In this document: positions 1 to 31,166 of the stretch, in pieces
Numbering within the stretch: the stretch's first letter is position 1
Layout: the number at the start of each line of letters is the position of its first letter
Notes under the pieces: model-generated
Told to the model about the DNA's origin: nothing
Database searches by the model: none
What the model saw: only the letters and a program-made list of their open reading frames with translations
Program-made: the position numbers and the translations under genes
Assembly: GCA_017478205.1 (NCBI GenBank)
Contig: JAFVDZ010000091.1
Span: forward strand, 1-64,000
DNA length: 64,000 nt
From: Spirochaetales bacterium
GTDB lineage: Bacteria; Spirochaetota; Spirochaetia; Sphaerochaetales; Sphaerochaetaceae
Reading direction: 5' to 3'

Positions 1-290
1 GTAGGAGTTGCGATACCAACTGCTACATCTACCTTCTCGTCCTTGAAGAGTCGTGCAATTGAAGCACAGGTGGAAATATCGCCATTTGCATTTTCGCTAT
101 GGATTGTATAGTTCAGATCGGTAGTGGCCATATAATCCTTGATACCCTGTTCAATTGAGTCAAGAGCAGGATGAGCAAGAAGCTTTGAGATACCGATTTT
201 GTAGGCATTTGATTTCTTTTCGCCTGCACCTGAAGCGAAGAGAAGTGCGGAAACAAGAAGAAGAATGAGAATGGTTGATAGTTTTTTCAT
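1..290 (-). CDS. ABC transporter substrate-binding protein (5' part)
   Basis: The reading frame starts at an ATG at 290 and runs off the left edge of the window, so about 96 N-terminal residues are visible. It opens with a signal peptide (basic MKK, hydrophobic core, then LFASGAGEKK) and continues with YKIGISKLLAHPALD and GDISTCASIARLFKDEKVD. This pattern is typical of the PF04392 ABC_sub_bind family, periplasmic binding proteins of uncharacterised importers, some with tryptophan or other amino-acid ligands. The signal peptide has no lipobox cysteine, so export as a soluble periplasmic protein is inferred. The permease and ATPase genes would lie beyond the left edge. An AAGGAAT ribosome site and a near-consensus promoter precede it. 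Confidence 0.8.
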   Translation of the reverse strand, partial: MKKLSTILILLLVSALLFASGAGEKKSNAYKIGISKLLAHPALDSIEQGIKDYMATTDLNYTIHSENANGDISTCASIARLFKDEKVDVAVGIATP

Positions 291-314
291 AATGTAAATT
301 CCTTATGTTTTGTT

Positions 315-342
315 ATTATAGATAGAAACATATCAATGTCAA
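315..342 (-). promoter_or_regulatory. sigma70-type promoter of the substrate-binding protein gene
   Basis: On the minus strand TTGACA (342-337) is followed after 16 bases by TATAAT (320-315), a near-perfect consensus promoter, with the start codon 25 bases downstream. The decamer ATAGAAACAT occurs twice on the plus strand (322-331 and 353-362), 31 bases or three helical turns apart, on either side of the -35 box. This could be a regulator site. Confidence 0.7.
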
Positions 343-498
343 GATACTATTTATAGAAACATTAAGATTTTTTCTCATTCTATAAGCAAGTAGTCCAGGA
401 AACTCCTTTTGGTGCTCTTGGAAGAACTCTGTATTTCGGAAACTAACATAAACTTTTAAGTCATTAGAAGAACATCCATTTCCCAGGATGGGTGAAAG

Positions 499-526
499 AA
501 TAGGAAAGGATCCTATTGATTTTTTT
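499..526 (+). terminator. Rho-independent terminator-like hairpin
   Basis: AATAGGA (499-505) and TCCTATT (511-517) form a perfect 7-bp stem around a 5-base loop, followed by GATTTTTTT. No intact gene lies upstream on this strand, so the terminated transcript is unknown. It may belong to a decayed gene or a small RNA. Confidence 0.55.
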
Positions 527-557
527 CGAATATAGCATTACACAGGAATTGACAGAG

Positions 558-611
558 CCTACCACGCATAAGGCAAAAAATGCACTGCGGACCACGGTAG
601 GACTTTTTTTT
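558..611 (+). terminator. Two-tier hairpin followed by a T tract
   Basis: CCTACC (558-563) pairs with GGTAGG (596-601), and inside it GCAT (566-569) pairs with ATGC (580-583). A run of eight T follows at 604-611. It lies only 32 bases after the hairpin at 499-526, so the DNA between them could be a short separate transcript. Confidence 0.45.
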
Positions 612-790
612 GGCCTAAGAGTAATTTAAGGATAGCACTGTCGCTATCTTAAATAATGTATCCAATAAAGACGAGTTGTTGTCATCGTTTACTTAATTAT
701 CATCATGTTGCATTAACCCTCTTAACTTAAATATAGATATACTGTAATATAAAACCGAATAGATATTCAGTATTGAAAGAAGGACTACAA

Positions 791-1360
791 TTGGCTCAGG
801 TATTGAAAGATGAAATATTTGAACGTATCTACCTTTCTGGAGTAGATGTGTTCTATGAAAAAGACTTTCGCAGCGCAACGATGCAGGAAATTGCAACTAG
901 GGCAGGAATTCCAGTTTCTCTGATCTATAACTACTATAAGAACAAGGCTGAACTGTTTGATAAGATTGTTTCATCACTGTATGTGAACTATGACAAGATT
1001 GCCTATGAAGAAGAACAATCTGAAGGTCTTCCATCTGAAAAGTATAAGAGTATAACTGAAGACTACATCCTCAAGCTGCTTGAAAAGCATAAGATATTTG
1101 TGATTCTCATGGATAAAAGCCAGGGAACAAAATATGAAACTGCAAAGGAGCAATTTATCCATTCAATTGAACAGCATATCAAACGACAGCTAGGGAAGAA
1201 GACTCACATCTCCTATAATGATATGCTCTGCCACATTCTTGCTAGTAACTTTGCAGAGGGTATATTGGAAGTTGCAAGGCATTATGAAAATCATGAGTTT
1301 GCTCGTACAATGCTTGATCTCGTAACAAAGTGTTATTACGAGGGAGTGAACTCTTTGTAA
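791..1360 (+). CDS. TetR/AcrR-family transcriptional regulator
   Basis: A 189-residue protein with an N-terminal TetR helix-turn-helix (SATMQEIATRAGIPVSLIYNYYKNKAELF, in two parts about residues 27-52) and an alpha-helical ligand-binding domain. TetR proteins are usually repressors of neighbouring transport genes. I place the start at TTG 791 because AGAAGGA (778-784) sits 6 bases before it. An in-frame TTG at 773 has no ribosome site. The two ABC transporter genes at 1489-4940 follow on the same strand with a palindromic operator between, so the regulator probably controls them. The effector is unknown. Confidence 0.85.
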   Translation: MAQVLKDEIFERIYLSGVDVFYEKDFRSATMQEIATRAGIPVSLIYNYYKNKAELFDKIVSSLYVNYDKIAYEEEQSEGLPSEKYKSITEDYILKLLEKHKIFVILMDKSQGTKYETAKEQFIHSIEQHIKRQLGKKTHISYNDMLCHILASNFAEGILEVARHYENHEFARTMLDLVTKCYYEGVNSL

Positions 1361-1417
1361 GAAGGGCCACATGCTAATCTAATTTGGAGAAGCTGGGCCT
1401 TTATCTTTAACTTATGT

Positions 1418-1433
1418 GTTAGCAGTAGCTAAC
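1418..1433. promoter_or_regulatory. Palindromic operator, site A
   Basis: GTTAGC (1418-1423), spacer AGTA, GCTAAC (1428-1433): a perfect 6-bp inverted repeat 55 bases before the first ABC gene. It overlaps the expected -35 region of a possible promoter whose -10 would be TATAGA (1440-1445). The same palindrome, with two spacer differences, lies upstream of the second ABC pair at 38531-38546. Confidence 0.65.
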
Positions 1434-1488
1434 TATTTGTATAGATTAATACCGAATTTCAATTCGTTATTAAAGGAGGATTTACTAA

Positions 1489-3225
1489 ATGACCAACCAA
1501 CAGGAATTGGTGAAGCAGGTGATAGGTAAGAACAAGCTATCGAACATTATGCTTTGTTGCAAAGTTGTTTTTGACCTACTTCCACAAGTACTTTTGATCC
1601 ACATGATTGGATTGTACTTCTTGTCAGAGCTCACAAGAAATCAGATCAGATGGGAATGCAGTGTCATCTTGATATGCTTTATCGCGAAGGCAATATGCTC
1701 CTACTTATCAACATGGTCAGCACATAAAGCTGCTTACACATGTCTGACAGAATTGAGACTTCAGATAATCCGTCACCTGAAAAAATTGTCTCTTGGATTC
1801 TTCCAGGAGCGTAAGATAGGTGATTTGACAAACATCGTGCACCACGATGTTGAACAGGTAGAAGGATATCTTGCTCATGGACTTCCTGAAATAATGTCAG
1901 CAACTATTCTTCCAATCGCAGTATTCTTCATTATGCTGTGGGTAGACTACCGTCTTGCGCTTGTAATGATTGCTGGTATTCCTCTGATGTGGATCACTAA
2001 AACTATCTCAGCACCAATTTGGGCAAAGAACTTCAAGATATACTCTGATTCAGTGACCAGAATGCAAGAAAACGTCATGGAATATGTTTCCTGCATTTCT
2101 GTAATCAAAGCCTTCGGAAAAGAAGAAACAAAAACCGAAAGAACAATTCAGGCAGCAAAAGACTATGATTATTGGGTCAAGAAGTCCATGGCAGGAATTT
2201 CTGTTCCGATGGGCTTGATCATCTTGTTCATGGAATCAGGAATAGTTCTCGTGATGATTCTTGGAACATATCTTCTATCCATTGGACAGATCAAACTATC
2301 GAATTTGATTCTTTCGATTGTCCTTGGAGGACTGTTTACATCATCCATTGCCAAGGTAGCAACATTCCAACATTACAGAATTGTGTTCAATCAAGCAATG
2401 AATGGAATATGGTCGATACTTGGTGTTGAAGCTCCAAAGAGACCTGGAAAGAGTGAGAAGCTAGTAAATGGAGAAATTGTCATCTCGAATCTGGATTTTG
2501 CATACAACAAAGATGAGAAAGTTCTGGATAACATCAATCTTTGCATTCCAAAGGGGACTAAGACTGCATTGGTTGGCTCTTCTGGGTGTGGGAAAAGTAC
2601 ACTTGCAAATCTACTTATGGGATTCTGGGAACCGACAAAGGGCAACATCACAATAGGGGGCAAAGATACAAAGAAGTATTCAGAAAAGGAAGTGAATAGC
2701 CTCTTTTCTATCGTTCAGCAAGAGGTCTTTCTCTTCAATCTGAGCATGGAAGAAAATATACGGATTGGAAAACCTGATGTGGGAGCGGAAGAAATCATAG
2801 AGGCCGCAAAGAAAGCCAGAATCCATGATTTCATCATTTCTCTTCCTAATGGGTATCAGACTTTGGCAGGTGAAACGGGTGTCAAATTCTCCGGAGGTGA
2901 AAAGCAGCGGATTTCCATTGCTCGCATGATATTGAAGGATGCCCCAATCATAATTCTAGATGAAGCAACTGCTTCACTGGATACAGAGAATGAAACCTAC
3001 ATTCAGGCAGCAATTGACTCTTTGAGCCAGGATAAGACTGTCATTATGATTGCCCACCATTTGAACACAATCCAGGATGCAGATCAGATCGTTGTAATGG
3101 ATAGCGGAAGGATCGTAGACATAGGAAAACATAAAGAGCTGCTTGAGCACTGTGCTCTATACAAAACGATGGTTGAAAATCAAAACAAGGTCGACAACTG
3201 GAAGATTAAGGAGGTGTCACTTTGA
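1489..3225 (+). CDS. Half-size ABC transporter (permease-ATPase), first of pair 1
   Basis: A 578-residue exporter-fold half transporter. An N-terminal six-helix membrane domain carries the coupling segment MEYVSCISVIKAFGKEE, and the C-terminal nucleotide-binding domain carries Walker A GSSGCGKST (about 364-372), signature FSGGEKQR, Walker B IIILDEATA and a switch histidine in IAHHLNTI. It starts at ATG 1489 after AAGGAGG. The next gene overlaps it by 4 bases, so the two probably form a heterodimer. The sequence style resembles the TetR-linked YbtP/YbtQ/IrtAB-like pairs common in gut anaerobes, some of which move metallophores. The substrate cannot be read from sequence. Confidence 0.88.
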   Translation: MTNQQELVKQVIGKNKLSNIMLCCKVVFDLLPQVLLIHMIGLYFLSELTRNQIRWECSVILICFIAKAICSYLSTWSAHKAAYTCLTELRLQIIRHLKKLSLGFFQERKIGDLTNIVHHDVEQVEGYLAHGLPEIMSATILPIAVFFIMLWVDYRLALVMIAGIPLMWITKTISAPIWAKNFKIYSDSVTRMQENVMEYVSCISVIKAFGKEETKTERTIQAAKDYDYWVKKSMAGISVPMGLIILFMESGIVLVMILGTYLLSIGQIKLSNLILSIVLGGLFTSSIAKVATFQHYRIVFNQAMNGIWSILGVEAPKRPGKSEKLVNGEIVISNLDFAYNKDEKVLDNINLCIPKGTKTALVGSSGCGKSTLANLLMGFWEPTKGNITIGGKDTKKYSEKEVNSLFSIVQQEVFLFNLSMEENIRIGKPDVGAEEIIEAAKKARIHDFIISLPNGYQTLAGETGVKFSGGEKQRISIARMILKDAPIIILDEATASLDTENETYIQAAIDSLSQDKTVIMIAHHLNTIQDADQIVVMDSGRIVDIGKHKELLEHCALYKTMVENQNKVDNWKIKEVSL

Positions 3226-4940
3226 TTAAGGAAATATGGAATACTCTTACTCCTGGTGGAAAGCGATCTTTATCGATCTCTGTCATAGCTTTTACCCTGT
3301 ATGCACTCTCGGGAATCGCAATGATGTATATCGTTCTCAAGGCACTGGAGAGTGTTGTTACAGGCAATGGAAACTTGCTTTTGTATTGGATATGTCTAGT
3401 TGTCTGTCTTTTGATAAAAGGTTGCAGCAATATACTTGCAGATGTAAGAAAGCACTATGCTGGGTTTGATATTGTCTATCAGGTACGAAAGAATATCATC
3501 TATCGCCTGAAAGAGTTTTCGCTTGGCTTCTATACAAATGAACGTTTGGGTGAGATTAGTACAATCATCCATAAAGATGTAGATAAGATGGAGATGGTCG
3601 TCGGCCATATGTGGACTAGGATGCTTGCCGATTTCATTGTGTCGATTATTCTGTTTACTGTTCTTGTCATTTACAGCCCAAAAATGGCCTTGCTCATGGC
3701 ATCTTCATTGCCACTTGCAATCCTGTTTCTTGTCCTTGGTCTAAAGAGAGCAAGATATCTAGAAAATGAAGCTGGAAACGATCTTGCTGATATGGTGAGT
3801 GTCTTTGTGGAATACATAAAAGGAATTCCACTCTTGAAAGCCTATTCTGAAAGTCACCAGTTTGAAAGAAGAGTTGAAAGATCGGCAAGTGTCTTTGGGC
3901 AAAGTTGCAAGGCTGTTTCAAGAAATCGTGCTGCTGTCTTGTCATTCTATGGCTTTATCCTAGATGTCTCTTTCTGGATTATGGTCACAGTAGGACTTGT
4001 CATGATGATGAAAGGTGAGCTTTCTGCTTATTCTTTCTTGCTCTTTGCAATCATCAGCCGTGAGTTCTATAAGCCATTTCTTAATCTGGAAAGCCATTGG
4101 GCAAACTATCTGACTGTGACAGACAGCTACCGCCGTATCAAGAAGATAACAGAAGCTGAAACAGTTCCAAATCCTAAAAGAGCACTTCAAGCTAAAGAGT
4201 ACTCGATCTCTTTTGATGATGTTTCGTTCTCTTATGAGGAGGGTGGTTTTTCTATTGAGGACATTTCCTTCCATACACCTGAACGAACACTTACTGCTCT
4301 TGTCGGTGGTTCGGGTTCTGGCAAGACAACAGTTACGAATCTCCTTTTGCGTTTTTGGGATGTAAATAGCGGTTCAATCAAAATCGGTAATGTTGATATA
4401 CGGGATATGAGTTACGATGATCTTTTATCTTCTGTCAGTATCGTCATGCAAAATGTCCAACTCTTTGCTGATACAATAGGGGGGAACATTAGACTTGGAA
4501 AGGCTAATGCAACAAAGGAAGAAGTTATCACGGCAGCAAAAAGGGCTCGCATACACGACTTTGTCATGTCATTGCCTGATGGTTATCAGACAATGATAGG
4601 GGAAAATGGTGTAGGACTTTCTGGTTGTCAGAAGCAACGCCTTTCTATCGCGAGAGCTTTCTTGAAAGATGCACCGATCTTGCTTTTGGATGAGATTACA
4701 AGCAATGTAGATCCTGTCAATGAAGCTTTGATACAACAAGCCATATCAGATCTGGCAAAGGATAGGACTGTCCTGGTAATTGCCCATCACTTAAGTACGA
4801 TCCGCAGTGCAGATCAGATATTGGTTTTCCAGGAAGGTAGGATTGTCCAATCGGGTAAACATGAAAGCCTAATAATGGATAAGAAGGGGTACTACTATAA
4901 TCTATGGAATTTCTCAGATCAGAGAGCTGACAATTTGTAG
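3222..4940 (+). CDS. Half-size ABC transporter (permease-ATPase), second of pair 1
   Basis: A 572-residue partner of the preceding gene. It starts at TTG 3222 inside a TTGA overlap with the previous stop, after AAGGAGG. It has a membrane domain and a nucleotide-binding domain with Walker A GGSGSGKTT, Walker B ILLLDEITS and IAHHLSTI. The ABC signature reads LSGCQ instead of LSGGQ, and the D-loop is SNVD rather than SALD. The heterodimer may therefore have one impaired ATP site, as in several known heterodimeric ABC exporters. A strong terminator follows at 4964. Confidence 0.88.
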   Translation: MIKEIWNTLTPGGKRSLSISVIAFTLYALSGIAMMYIVLKALESVVTGNGNLLLYWICLVVCLLIKGCSNILADVRKHYAGFDIVYQVRKNIIYRLKEFSLGFYTNERLGEISTIIHKDVDKMEMVVGHMWTRMLADFIVSIILFTVLVIYSPKMALLMASSLPLAILFLVLGLKRARYLENEAGNDLADMVSVFVEYIKGIPLLKAYSESHQFERRVERSASVFGQSCKAVSRNRAAVLSFYGFILDVSFWIMVTVGLVMMMKGELSAYSFLLFAIISREFYKPFLNLESHWANYLTVTDSYRRIKKITEAETVPNPKRALQAKEYSISFDDVSFSYEEGGFSIEDISFHTPERTLTALVGGSGSGKTTVTNLLLRFWDVNSGSIKIGNVDIRDMSYDDLLSSVSIVMQNVQLFADTIGGNIRLGKANATKEEVITAAKRARIHDFVMSLPDGYQTMIGENGVGLSGCQKQRLSIARAFLKDAPILLLDEITSNVDPVNEALIQQAISDLAKDRTVLVIAHHLSTIRSADQILVFQEGRIVQSGKHESLIMDKKGYYYNLWNFSDQRADNL

Positions 4941-4963
4941 TGAAGTCTATTTGGAATGAAAGT

Positions 4964-5011
4964 ATGCCGACGGTTTTGCTTTGTATAGGTACAATCGTCG
5001 GCATTGTTTTT
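4964..5011 (+). terminator. Terminator of the tetR/ABC operon
   Basis: ATGCCGACG (4964-4972) and CGTCGGCAT (4996-5004) form a perfect 9-bp stem with a 23-base loop, followed by TGTTTTT. It lies 23 bases after the stop of the second ABC gene. Confidence 0.85.
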
Positions 5012-5070
5012 GATAAAACAAACTGAAGCCTAATATTATTGATATTTCCTTTCTAGATGAGGTCAGAAGA

Positions 5071-5103
5071 CAAAAACGGCAAAGTCTGAAAAAGCTTTGC
5101 CGT
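5071..5103 (-). terminator. Terminator of the acidic protein gene
   Basis: ACGGCAAAG (5076-5084) and CTTTGCCGT (5095-5103) form a 9-bp stem. Read on the minus strand it is followed by TTTTTG, as expected for the end of the 5150-5428 transcript. Confidence 0.8.
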
Positions 5104-5149
5104 TTCTCTCGTAAACTCTTTATGATTATATTCTCATAAGGTGATATGT

Positions 5150-5428
5150 TCAGAAGTCGATATCGAACCTTTCATCTCTCTCATCTTCGTACTGACGCTC
5201 TTCATCATCGTCATCGATAGAAAAGACGTGGTCTGAAAGATCATCGTCATCATCAGAGTGTGATGAATATCCATCTTCATCTTCTATGTCATCGAAGTTA
5301 TCGAATTCGATGCCATACTCTCTGTCCGAGTAGCTGTCATCTAGATCATCGCCACCTTTTCTGAAATATTCATCTTCAAGACGATCGAGATCGTCATCAT
5401 CTAGATCGAAAGATTTTCTGTAGGCCAT
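5150..5428 (-). CDS. Very acidic small protein of unknown function
   Basis: A 92-residue protein preceded by AGGAGGT five bases before ATG and followed by its own terminator, so it is a real gene despite low complexity. Roughly half of the residues are Asp or Glu, with runs such as DLDDDDLDRLEDE and SDDDDDLSDH. It has no cysteine, no signal peptide and no membrane segment. I do not recognise a family. It is expected to be largely disordered and strongly negatively charged, so binding of cations or of basic proteins is possible but only inferred. Confidence 0.7.
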   Translation of the reverse strand: MAYRKSFDLDDDDLDRLEDEYFRKGGDDLDDSYSDREYGIEFDNFDDIEDEDGYSSHSDDDDDLSDHVFSIDDDDEERQYEDERDERFDIDF

Positions 5429-5537
5429 AGCTACCTCCTGACTGTTGTTGATAAACTAGTTATAAACCGAAAATGATGCACATGGAAGAGTAATGTTGAT
5501 TGAAACATTATCTTGATTCTGTTCATATAATATAAAT

Positions 5538-6629
5538 ATGAAGAAACTAATTTTATTAATTTTCACTCTTCCCCTGTTTCTTTTATCCTGTACGACAGGA
5601 GTAAAAATCGATTATCTGGCACCATCGGAGATTGACATGTCCTCCTATCGGACAGTTGCAATCGCATCCTGTGTGCCATATACAAAGACAAAGAATCCAG
5701 GTTTGATAATACGAAACCTAGATGTCTTTTCTGATGTCGATTATGTCTATCAATCTGGATACAACGGTAAACGCTTTGCAAAGAAGAGCTCTGAGTATGT
5801 TACAGATCTCTTCGAAACGACACTAAAGGGTACTGGGTACTTCACAGTGATAGGGCATGAGGTTACTGATTCAATCATAAGTGCCTCAAAGAAGGGTTAT
5901 GATATAAAACCATTTATTCAGAGCTACAATATCGATGCGATCATAATTCCTAAGATTTCATATGCTGAAATCGATGAAGCGATCGAGAGTGACGAGTATA
6001 CAACAAGAGTCAAGAACGCAAGTGGTGAGTATGTTGAAACGATAGCGTACAGATACATACTCCATCAGAGTGTATCTATTACTGTTTCCTATACAATAAT
6101 CGATACAGCAACGATGGAGGTCTACTCGACAAAGAAACTGCAGGGCTATAGGAAAGAGCAGTCGGATACGAATCATTTTTCAAACGTTGGAAAGGATCCT
6201 CTTCAGATCGCAAAGAAGATAATCTACAGCTTCGATGAGGACTTGATCGTGGACCTTGTTCCTCATAGGATGGTTGCAGAGTTCAACTTAGTGAAGAACA
6301 AACCTAAGCTTGATGAAGCAAAGGCTGTGTACAAGATTGTAAACAAGAATCCAGCATTTGCAGAGCTTGAATTCAAGAGACTCTATGATACATATGGACA
6401 CATTCCATCGGGCGTAAATGCTGCAATTCTGAAAGCAAAGAATATGGATTATGATGGTGCGATAGAGCTTCTTGGAAATATCTACTCTGCTAGTGGAGAC
6501 AGGAATGCATATAGCTTGCTTGAAAGCGTGAAGTGCATGAAAACGCAGACAACACTAGCTACCAAACAGTTTGAGAGAGTAGGTAACAAAACTGATCGGA
6601 ATATATTCCAGACAATAATGGATGAATGA
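5538..6629 (+). CDS. Putative lipoprotein, CsgG/FlgO-like N-terminal part
   Basis: A 363-residue protein with a signal peptide and lipobox FLLSC near residue 18, so it is predicted to be a lipid-anchored envelope protein. The first 220 residues have the alternating pattern of CsgG/FlgO/LpoB-like lipoproteins: a YRTVAIASC strand, helices, then a strand IDAIIIPKISY. The last third (LVKNKPKLDEAKAVYKIV, then NMDYDGAIELLGNIY) looks like short TPR-like helical hairpins. No enzyme motif is visible. There is no Shine-Dalgarno sequence; TATAAT (5526-5531) ends 6 bases before the ATG, which suggests a leaderless mRNA. The family assignment is tentative. Confidence 0.7.
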   Translation: MKKLILLIFTLPLFLLSCTTGVKIDYLAPSEIDMSSYRTVAIASCVPYTKTKNPGLIIRNLDVFSDVDYVYQSGYNGKRFAKKSSEYVTDLFETTLKGTGYFTVIGHEVTDSIISASKKGYDIKPFIQSYNIDAIIIPKISYAEIDEAIESDEYTTRVKNASGEYVETIAYRYILHQSVSITVSYTIIDTATMEVYSTKKLQGYRKEQSDTNHFSNVGKDPLQIAKKIIYSFDEDLIVDLVPHRMVAEFNLVKNKPKLDEAKAVYKIVNKNPAFAELEFKRLYDTYGHIPSGVNAAILKAKNMDYDGAIELLGNIYSASGDRNAYSLLESVKCMKTQTTLATKQFERVGNKTDRNIFQTIMDE

Positions 6630-6638
6630 TTGCTTAAC

Positions 6639-6688
6639 ACTTGTTAGGTATTTTACATTATTTTTTTGCAATCAATATCCTAACAAGT
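6639..6688. repeat. Long-armed inverted repeat
   Basis: ACTTGTTAGG (6639-6648) and CCTAACAAGT (6679-6688) are perfect 10-bp arms separated by 30 AT-rich bases that contain seven consecutive T. It lies 10 bases after the lipoprotein stop and just before a second hairpin (6708-6742). Confidence 0.6.
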
Positions 6689-6707
6689 AGGTAAAAATAC
6701 AAGAAAT

Positions 6708-6742
6708 GAGGGTAATATGCGTTAAATTACCCTCGTTTTGTA
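6708..6742 (+). terminator. Terminator downstream of the lipoprotein gene
   Basis: GAGGGTAAT (6708-6716) and ATTACCCTC (6726-6734) form a perfect 9-bp stem with a 9-base loop, followed by GTTTTGTAT. Confidence 0.8.
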
Positions 6743-6836
6743 TATGCTTTAAGGTCATAAAAGCCATTTTTTTACTCAATTTCAATTTTTATCTCATCTC
6801 TTGCGTTTTGAAACTTGAGAATAATAAAATCGTATT

Positions 6837-7487
6837 ATGGAATTTCTGGATATGCATTCGCATCTTCTTCCTGGTGTCGATGATTCGCGTCAGAGCAGAT
6901 TTTTCTTTGACAGAATGCTCAGGTGTTACGCTGAAATCGGATTTGGGGGGATTGTCTTTACACCTCATATAGACAATCCATCTGTAAGGACGAAAAAGGA
7001 TCGCATCCAGAAGACCTTTGAGTGGGCGAGCAGAAAGGCTGAAGAGTATGATCTCAAGACCTACTTGGGCTCTGAGTACTATGTCGTGGATCAGAAGAAA
7101 ATCGATTTGATTCCGATATTCGGCAAGTATGCTCTGTGTGAAACCTTTACTGGCACTATGCCAAAGGATTATCTGGATGTCCTGAGAAGAGTCAAGGACA
7201 AGGGATATGAGATCATAATTGCCCATATCGAAAGGTATATCTGGCTAAAGCCGGATAGTGATGTGATGAGGAGCCTTGTCGAGGAACTGAAGGTCAAGAT
7301 CCAAGTCAATGCCATGGGGGCAATGACAAAGGAAGGGAAACGATATCTTTCTCTTGATATGGTAGATTTCTTGGCAAGTGATTGCCATGGTGATAGGAAG
7401 CTTGTGGGCGAGCTATACAGACAGCTCGAAAAGAACCCAAATGTCGCATTTAAAATGTGTGATTTTTTCGCACAGGAAATAGAATAG
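6837..7487 (+). CDS. PHP-domain phosphoesterase, CpsB/Wzh-like
   Basis: A 216-residue metal-dependent PHP hydrolase. The metal-binding motifs appear in family order: MHSHLLPGVDD (residues 6-16), FTPHID, LGSEYYV, IIAHIERY and LASDCHGD near the C terminus. CpsB/YwqE members are Mn-dependent protein-tyrosine phosphatases acting on capsule-synthesis kinases, while other PHP enzymes cleave small phosphoesters. No capsule genes are nearby. It is the first gene of a tight operon with the AAA ATPase, RloB-like and LuxR genes (gap 10 bases, with the AGGAGG of the next gene overlapping its stop). There is no Shine-Dalgarno sequence; TAAAAT (6825-6830) ends 6 bases before ATG. The substrate is unknown. 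Confidence 0.82.
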   Translation: MEFLDMHSHLLPGVDDSRQSRFFFDRMLRCYAEIGFGGIVFTPHIDNPSVRTKKDRIQKTFEWASRKAEEYDLKTYLGSEYYVVDQKKIDLIPIFGKYALCETFTGTMPKDYLDVLRRVKDKGYEIIIAHIERYIWLKPDSDVMRSLVEELKVKIQVNAMGAMTKEGKRYLSLDMVDFLASDCHGDRKLVGELYRQLEKNPNVAFKMCDFFAQEIE

Positions 7488-28808: not shown

Positions 28809-28881
28809 TGGGAAGTCGCCAAGTGGTTAAGGCAGTGGGTTTTGATCCCGCCATTCGTGAGTTCGAGTCTCGCCTTCCCAG
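28809..28881 (+). tRNA. tRNA-Gln (anticodon UUG)
   Basis: A 73-nt cloverleaf. The acceptor stem is TGGGAAG (28809-28815) with CTTCCCA (28874-28880) and discriminator G. The D arm contains AAGTGGTTAAGGC, the anticodon stem GTGGG/CCCGC encloses loop TTTTGAT with anticodon TTG, and the T arm reads GTTCGAGTC. The 3' CCA is not encoded. A terminator follows at 28896. Confidence 0.95.
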
Positions 28882-28933: not shown

Positions 28934-29247
28934 GCTGTGTCGGCAAAGCTAAGTTATATATCGCTCCTTTTAAATTTGTTCTGTCATTTACTTCAACTTT
29001 GAGAGAATCGTAGTAGTGTGAAACATGAACCAAAAATGATAGGTCATACAGCACATCAGAGCATTGTTGTCTAGATTACATTTTAAGTTGGATGTTTACA
29101 AACTGTTTGTGCAAATATTTATTGATTTGCTTGTGACAAAAGCTATACTTCATTTAGTTGCATTCAGGTTCATATATGAATAGTGAACTTCGATCAAATA
29201 AAATCACAAACTTTCCCCAAGAGGGTAGAAATAAGGAGTTATGAAAA
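28934..29247 (+). other. Leader region of the lectin-like gene
   Basis: No gene is present. Two short inverted repeats (ACAAACTGTTTGT near 29098-29110 and GCAAAT/ATTTGC at 29111-29130) lie just upstream of and across a likely promoter, and AAGGAG (29233-29238) is the ribosome site of the next gene. The rest shows nothing recognisable. Confidence 0.4.
29122..29149 (+). promoter_or_regulatory. Likely promoter of the DUF1566 lipoprotein gene
   Basis: TTGATT (29122-29127), 16-base spacer, TATACT (29144-29149). It is placed about 100 bases before the start codon and overlaps the inverted repeat GCAAAT/ATTTGC. Confidence 0.5.
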
Positions 29248-29371
29248 ATGCTGAGAAAAAGCTTTTTCATCACATGTCTCTTGATGTTTGCATTGTTTGC
29301 AATCTGTCTTGTTTCCTGAGATGATGACAATGATGAAAGTGAAGCAGCCACTGCCATCGTCTACAAGGTAG

Positions 29372-30019
29372 GCGATGAAGGTCCTGCAGGTGGAATTATC
29401 TTCTATGACTGTGATGCTGATAATGAAGATGACAATGCAGATGGCCTTGAATCAAGTGAATGTGGCTGGAGATATCTTGAGGCAGCACCAGCAGACCTTA
29501 GAATTGTTGATGATGAACCTACTGTTGATTCAACTCTTACTGGCTATTCTAATGCAACAAGTACTGCATTTATATTTGGTTACTATAAAGTTGATGGTAA
29601 TAATTCTTATGTCAATGGAACAACCACATATAACAGCTCAAACTGCACGGGAACAGCTATCGATCGGTACTGGGAAGAACAATACTAAATTGCTTGTTGA
29701 TACTATGGGAACCGATTATGCTTATTCATCATATAGTGGATCCACTACAACCACTGACTATGCAGCAAGGCTGTGCGATATTCTTGAGTATAAAAAAGAT
29801 GAAGTGACATACACAGACTGGTTCCTTCCAAGCAAGGAAGAACTGAATCTGATGTATACAAATCTCTACAAGAATGAATTGGGCGATTTTACAGGTTACT
29901 ATTACTGGTCCTCCAGTGAGTACGACGCAGACGGCGCGTATCTACAGGAATTGAGCGATGATAATCCGTACGGCAACTACCGCAACTACTATTACAGTGT
30001 GCGTCCAGTTCGGGCTTTC
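29372..30019 (+). repeat. Internal repeat copy 1 (DUF1566 domain 1)
   Basis: The first of two tandem domain-length repeats. Long stretches are nearly identical to copy 2, for example around GGAACAACCACATATAACAG. It ends in a divergent segment (29906-30019) bounded by the shared sequences TGGTCCTCCAGTGAG and GTGCGTCCAGT. Confidence 0.7.
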
Positions 30020-30165
30020 TTGAATGATGAAGTCTGTGAACACACATGGGATGAAGGTGAGGTCACTGTGGAAGCAACTTTTTATAATAATGGTATAAAG
30101 ACTTACACTTGTACAGAATGCCATATGACCAAGGTCGAAATAATTCCTATATTAACCCCAGAAGT

Positions 30166-30829
30166 AGGAAAAGCAGGTCCAACAGGTGGTATTATCTTCT
30201 ATGACTGCGATGCAGATAATGACACTGGAAATGCAGATGGCCTTACATCAAGTGAATGTCTCTGGAGATATCTTGAAGCAGCACCTGCTGATTTGAGGAT
30301 TGTTGCAGGCACTCCTACTGTTGATTCTTCTACCGAAGGCTATTCAAATGGATCGTATGAAATCTACTACGGCTACTACAGAACTTCTGATGACGGTGAC
30401 GAGCTCTATGTAAATGGAACAACCACATATAACAGCTCAAACTGCACAGGAACAGCAATAGGTACCGGAAAGAAGAATACTGAACTGCTTGTTGGTACTA
30501 TGGGAGATGAAGCATACAAGTATCATCATACAAATAGCAACAATTCAGAGAAGATTTCTGATTATGCAGCAAGGTTGTGCGATATCCTCGAGTATACAAA
30601 AGATGGAGTGACATACACAGACTGGTTCCTTCCAAGCTTGGATGAGCTGAATCTGATGAATACAAATCTGAAGGCGAAAAGCTTGGGCGATTTTGAAAGT
30701 GCCTGGTACTGGTCCTCCAGTGAGGACAGCGTCGGCGCAGACGGCGCGTTGTTACAGTTCTTAAGCAGTGTGTTTCAGCTCGGCTACAGCCGCAGCTCCG
30801 TTTACAGAGTGCGTCCAGTGCGGGCTTTC
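30166..30829 (+). repeat. Internal repeat copy 2 (DUF1566 domain 2)
   Basis: The second repeat, about 794 bases downstream of copy 1. Its terminal segment (30710-30829) is two codons longer than that of copy 1 and differs at most codons between the shared flanks, although the domain body is well conserved. Confidence 0.7.
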
Positions 30830-30879
30830 ATTTAACTATTTAACTAGTTGGAAGGAGATTGCTTTGGCTCTGTGCTGGC

Positions 30880-30908
30880 TTGTGTCTAGTTTTTATTGCT
30901 GATATAGC
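30880..30908 (+). promoter_or_regulatory. Promoter of a candidate small RNA
   Basis: TTGTGT (30880-30885), 17-base spacer, TATAGC (30903-30908), upstream of a compact hairpin-rich segment that ends in a terminator. Confidence 0.45.
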
Positions 30909-30911
30909 CTC

Positions 30912-31055
30912 TTTCTGAAACTTCCTGAATTCCCAAGGGAGGATATATGCTTCCTTTGAGAGTGGAGTATGAAGCATATATAGAGCAAATGGCAAGATTC
31001 TGTTTCAAAGAGAGTATCTTGAGAGGTTCCAAGGATTATGGAACTTCTCTTTTTT
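30912..31055 (+). ncRNA. Candidate structured small RNA
   Basis: About 145 bases between a promoter-like sequence and a terminator. GAAAC (30917-30921) with GTTTC (31002-31006), extended by CTCTTT (30909-30914) with AAAGAG (31007-31012), closes the structure. Inside, ATATATGCTTC (30943-30953) pairs perfectly with GAAGCATATAT (30971-30981), and TCCC-AA-GGGA forms a small hairpin. The 3' end is GAGAGGTTCC (31021-31030) with GGAACTTCTC (31040-31049) and six T. It does not show SRP, tmRNA or RNase P signatures. It might instead be the leader of the ctc operon that follows. Confidence 0.45.
31021..31055 (+). terminator. Terminator of the candidate small RNA
   Basis: GAGAGGTTCC (31021-31030) and GGAACTTCTC (31040-31049) form a 10-bp stem with one G-T pair, followed by TTTTTT (31050-31055). 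Confidence 0.75.
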
Positions 31056-31166
31056 ATGCAGGCTCTTGCATCAAAGTATATTATCTTGATAATATCATCG
31101 AGTGTGCGTAGCACAATCAATCCATGGTAATTGGCAATAAGCCAATGAGAGTATAAGGAGAAAATT

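Follow-up and report, generated by a model that had tools for sequence, protein, structure and literature searches.

A disrupted lipoprotein gene inserted between tRNA-Gln and rplY

The window analyzed here is a 64,000-nucleotide stretch of contig C27, part of a 1.90-Mb draft genome of a Spirochaetales bacterium that is divided into 98 contigs and is 97.5% complete. Between tRNA-Gln and rplY, the window contains an inserted segment with a disrupted gene for a DUF1566 surface lipoprotein, by descent a target of a diversity-generating retroelement (DGR), followed by a degraded copy of the DGR accessory gene avd. The features of this locus are as follows:

28809–28881, forward strand: tRNA-Gln, left neighbor of the insertion (ARAGORN and Rfam; same neighbor in 13 genus relatives)
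28936–31064, forward strand: inserted segment of ~2.1 kb with approximate junctions, not present in the closest relative (alignment to the empty site of that relative, G004, locus L182)
29248–30835, forward strand: two-domain DUF1566 surface lipoprotein pseudogene, DGR target by descent (translation and Pfam Lcl_C matches)
29317–29319, forward strand: TGA stop at the codon expected for the lipobox cysteine, ..ICLVS*DDD (translation)
29659–29666, forward strand: ATCGATCG, a tandem duplication of 4 bp causing a frameshift within domain 1 (alignment of eight domains and sequence)
29738–30019, forward strand: C-terminal part of DUF1566 domain 1 (PF07603 match, E = 2.1e-7)
29906–30019, forward strand: variable region 1 with flanks (flank positions and alignment of copies)
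30176–30832, forward strand: DUF1566 domain 2, intact, predicted to be C-type-lectin-like (PF07603 match, AlphaFold, and PDB match)
30710–30829, forward strand: variable region 2 with flanks (flank positions and alignment of copies)
30847–31049, forward strand: degraded avd gene with no open frame (alignment to the avd relic of contig C94)
31167–31781, forward strand: rplY, encoding ribosomal protein L25, right neighbor of the insertion (gene annotation and gene order of relatives)

Comparison with related genomes delimits the insertion. Fourteen genus relatives gave an rplY match, and in 13 of them rplY and pth come after tRNA-Gln within a few hundred bases, the site between tRNA-Gln and rplY being empty; the spacing between these two genes in the window genome is 2285 bases.

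The reading frame of the target gene, starting at 29248, encodes a lipoprotein signal peptide and then runs into the TGA codon, at the position where the homolog on contig C30 reads LVSCGGG, and domain 1 is split by the 4-bp duplication. This disruption had been missed in the initial annotation. Both lesions rest on one assembly and part of them could be sequencing error.

Domain 2 yielded an AlphaFold model with a mean pLDDT of 89.3. When this model was compared with the PDB, the only match with E < 0.001 was 8q4e, the C-terminal domain of Lcl from Legionella, and further matches were to C-type lectins with weak E-values. The modeled domain would therefore provide a C-type-lectin-like scaffold, and the fold that had been attributed to DUF1566 from the letters alone is borne out by the match to the solved Lcl structure. 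Lcl is the best match by both sequence and structure and shares the same C-type-lectin-like DUF1566 fold; it is an adhesin, and no mention of DGR diversification was found in its description (PMC11162425).

Adenine-directed variation in eight variable regions

DGRs use a reverse transcriptase and the accessory protein Avd to copy a template into cDNA, making errors at its adenines, and this cDNA replaces a variable region. In the window, the last parts of the two DUF1566 domains diverge sharply, at 29906–30009 and 30710–30819, between a conserved 5' flank, TGGTCCTCCAGTGAG (positions 29906 and 30710), and a conserved 3' flank, GTGCGTCCAGT (positions 29999 and 30809), as had been observed at the outset. 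The domain bodies had been called nearly identical, which is too strong for a DNA identity of 78–84%, with up to 94% in short blocks. Downstream of the aligned GCG, the two copies differ at 15 codons rather than about 13; exactly eight of these are changed only within bases 1–2 and have C or T in common as third base, in agreement with the first count (GAT/AGT, AAT/TTT, TAC/CTC, AAC/TAC, TAC/AGC, AAC/AGC, TAC/TCC, and TAT/GTT).

The genome encodes nine DUF1566 domains: two in the window, five on contig C94, one at the end of contig C30, and one on contig C7. The first eight have the same variable-region structure, and the six copies on C94 and C30 carry the same signature as the window pair. 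The C7 copy was set aside as an ordinary domain, as this signature is missing from both its variable region and its 3' flank. The C94 and C30 target genes, which are still open, encode four large lipoproteins of 752, 2048, 1319, and 1219 amino acids with lipobox signal peptides and six variable regions, some also containing BspA-type leucine-rich repeats or carboxypeptidase-regulatory-like domains. All eight variable regions have in common their flanks and the 3' segment GTGCGTCCAGTNCGGGCTTTC, which follows the variable region at the place of a candidate initiation site and shows no mismatch in six of the eight copies. Their lengths vary by entire codons, a difference that one template alone does not account for.

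We predicted the template from the eight copies by placing AAC or AAT at every codon that has a C or T third base and variation in its first two bases; its core is AACGCRTGGAANCAGAACTTCAACAAYGG. The prediction was fixed before any real template repeat had been seen. Among 139 genomes of the family, its best foreign matches were on G126:C26 and G130:C87 (85% over 98 nt), and in both cases (loci L083 and L084) the matched site is a template repeat, flanked by avd and by a reverse transcriptase gene whose product has the motif LPIGNLTSQ. A DUF1566 target lies upstream of avd in G126, where 14 of the 16 substitutions between template and variable region (L083) fall at A. A search of 2.9 million viral contigs with the predicted core found seven, each with homologs of the reverse transcriptase and avd.

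The template repeat matched in the family, which comes from another genus, was used to label the A columns in the alignment of the eight copies. Variation was 0.548 at A columns versus 0.255 elsewhere, an excess that was significant under column permutation (p = 5e-5) and under the stricter permutation of whole codons (p = 0.003); the window pair alone gave 0.54 versus 0.26 (p = 0.02). Variation hence falls on the adenines of an external template, the mark of a target gene. Differences at codon positions 1, 2, and 3 were 0.44, 0.44, and 0.26 in the variable region, compared to 0.13, 0.07, and 0.23 in the body just upstream, so that the variable region reverses the usual pattern. Differing sites made up 120 of 254 at predicted A versus 26 of 247 (~10%) at predicted non-A. 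The non-adenine share exceeds that expected of an active system, likely reflecting drift after loss or the use of more than one template.

Could these patterns have arisen by ordinary divergence of paralogs, with diversifying selection and gene conversion in the DUF1566 family and no retroelement? The presence of nine domains, both tandem and dispersed, would suit this explanation, as would the C7 copy, which differs in the way an ordinary paralog would. However, selection accounts neither for conserved third bases beside varying first and second bases nor for the coincidence with the adenines of a foreign template, and the avd relics directly behind two targets are left unexplained. This explanation is thus largely refuted and we consider it highly improbable.

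Relics of avd and the missing reverse transcriptase and template

The degraded avd gene in the window lies directly downstream of the second variable region, the same placement as the intact avd of L083. Being too decayed, it gives no protein-family match by itself, and its alignment to the intact L083 avd (20.5) is within the range of shuffled sequences (maximum 22.5), i.e., the direct link is not significant. The window relic is instead tied to avd through a second relic on C94, to which it aligns locally with a score of 60.5; the highest score among 500 dinucleotide shuffles was 25. The C94 relic, located directly behind one of the C94 variable regions, is frameshifted and better preserved than that of the window; it matches the families DivGenRetAVD (E = 2e-6) and bAvd (E = 3e-6) and is ~67% identical to the intact L083 avd.

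The initial annotation had proposed a search of the genome for a template repeat and a reverse transcriptase, whose absence from a complete genome would count against its reading, and neither was found in the assembly. No DGR-type reverse transcriptase was detected in this incomplete draft (97.5% complete), either as an RVT_1 domain or as a match to the L083 enzyme; the predicted template finds only the variable regions in the same draft assembly; and the only avd copies there are the degraded ones in the window and on C94. Given the avd relics and the gene lesions, these absences are better read as loss of the system than as a sign that the lead was false. The suggestion that the two domains are DGR targets therefore holds as one of descent, supported by eight variable regions with an adenine signature, the template match, and avd beside two targets: they are targets by descent, with diversification at the window locus probably no longer ongoing. 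In viral contigs, the target domain found only a 23-residue match at two loci and the avd relic found no matches.

At the ends of contigs C27, C29, C30, and C94 (L178, L179, L180, and L028) lies an insertion sequence that is present in multiple copies and has imperfect inverted repeats of 16 bp (CTCAAAGTTGACACTT); it breaks the assembly in several places, the window contig included. C30 and C94 end at opposite ends of this kind of insertion sequence, with a 7-bp flank of TTAACTA. Since their ends match its two ends, these contigs are probably neighbors.

A draft of 98 contigs, several of which end at an insertion sequence, could miss a reverse transcriptase in unassembled sequence. The system might then still be alive, with its reverse transcriptase and template unassembled or with the reverse transcriptase of a resident element acting in trans, such that the six C94 and C30 regions would still be diversified and only the window copy would be dead. 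The long intact frames of the C94 and C30 target genes and the breaks at insertion sequences beside the target array are compatible with this, and a single core driving remote targets is known in Treponema denticola (PMC4891356). Against it stand a 97.5%-complete assembly without any reverse transcriptase, the degradation of the avd copies, the frequency of non-adenine differences, and a gap between C30 and C94 that apparently consists of one insertion sequence only. We regard a living system as unlikely; the DGR looks dead, at least in this assembly.

Reverse transcriptases of genus relatives were also checked and rejected. Those of L063, L064, and L068 are part of other DGRs, whose templates are unrelated, that of L169 is group-II-type by motif, and the adjacent pair in L067 is Drt3a/Drt3b. 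As observations in their own right, L063, L064, and L068 from the same genus and L065 from the same family are complete DGRs, all with unrelated templates and with template and variable-region repeats of 104–124 nt and 89–92% identity, and the L063 element sits among phage-tail-like genes. The L067 pair (G014, positions 3623–7100) matches Drt3b (E = 2e-160) and Drt3a (E = 4e-85), i.e., an anti-phage DRT3 pair.

Probable decay of the cassette and its relation to known systems

The locus is very probably the remnant of a decayed DGR cassette that once diversified DUF1566 lipoproteins, and which has since lost its reverse transcriptase and template, while avd decayed and the window target became a pseudogene. 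The cassette, inserted between tRNA-Gln and rplY, would have been ordered as target, avd, and originally the template repeat and reverse transcriptase. With Avd, the reverse transcriptase would have copied a template rich in AAC and AAT, mutating its adenines, and the mutated copies would have overwritten the ends of DUF1566 domains in surface lipoproteins, presumably varying ligand-facing residues. Eight variable regions of the genome would have taken up such copies, either here or in a recent ancestor. Loss of the reverse transcriptase and template, decay of avd, and disruption of the window gene would have come afterwards.

Alternatively, the target and avd may have been acquired as orphans without a reverse transcriptase, with no diversification ever taking place in this host. 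The insertion has no counterpart in the genus relatives; the genome G022 contains a target, avd, and template with no reverse transcriptase beside them; and acquisition of the target gene only has been considered for T. denticola SP32 (PMC4891356). However, diversification here or in a recent ancestor would account more simply for eight diverged regions with a common template signature, and we judge orphan acquisition to be rather improbable.

Leftover DGR target genes are present in T. denticola (al-2 and SP32) in genomes that lack the reverse transcriptase and template (PMC4891356); as in the present case, the targets are spirochaete lipoproteins with adenine-directed variable regions. In contrast, the T. 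denticola system has an HRDC-type accessory gene and a TvpA-like target rather than DUF1566 targets, and in the window genome decayed avd relics remain and the window target is a pseudogene. Within the same family, the DGRs of G126 and G130 have homologous target domains, avd, and templates in the order target, avd, template, and reverse transcriptase, but they are from a different genus and, unlike the window cassette, are complete and apparently intact. DUF1566 is reported to be the commonest target domain of DGRs, and one template often serves several variable regions; the bacterial DUF1566 DGRs described from human microbiomes and other genomes differ from the present one in having kept their reverse transcriptase and template (PMC4159848; PMC6642488).

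Several loci in other genomes bear on related elements. L066 (G022:C49, positions 1–3300) contains a DUF1566 target, an intact avd, a template repeat, and, where the reverse transcriptase would be expected, a short frame that by eye has the appearance of a PD-(D/E)XK-type nuclease; it is possibly a DGR that lost its reverse transcriptase. Single DUF1566 genes in other genera (L086, L087, and L077) have a flank, TACTGGTCCTCCAGTGA, that is identical at the DNA level to copies of the window genome, with no avd or reverse transcriptase nearby, and are perhaps further orphaned targets. Among named genomes, the closest one encoding a similar domain is a MAG of the Spirochaetales from roe-deer rumen (L088; domain identity of 62%). 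As a tentative and rather doubtful extension, the reverse transcriptase may have been lost in several rumen spirochaete lineages, with G022 as an intermediate and the four intact lipoproteins with their six regions as a repertoire either frozen or diversified in trans.

Leftover targets as such are already known from T. denticola; the present case adds relics of avd, a pseudogene, an empty site, and a template that was predicted correctly. A DGR can be recognized, and its lost template correctly predicted, from the scars in its target genes without a reverse transcriptase or template. Together with the empty site in close relatives and the intact cassettes in the same family, this makes the locus a clear example of how a DGR decays in spirochaetes of the gut.
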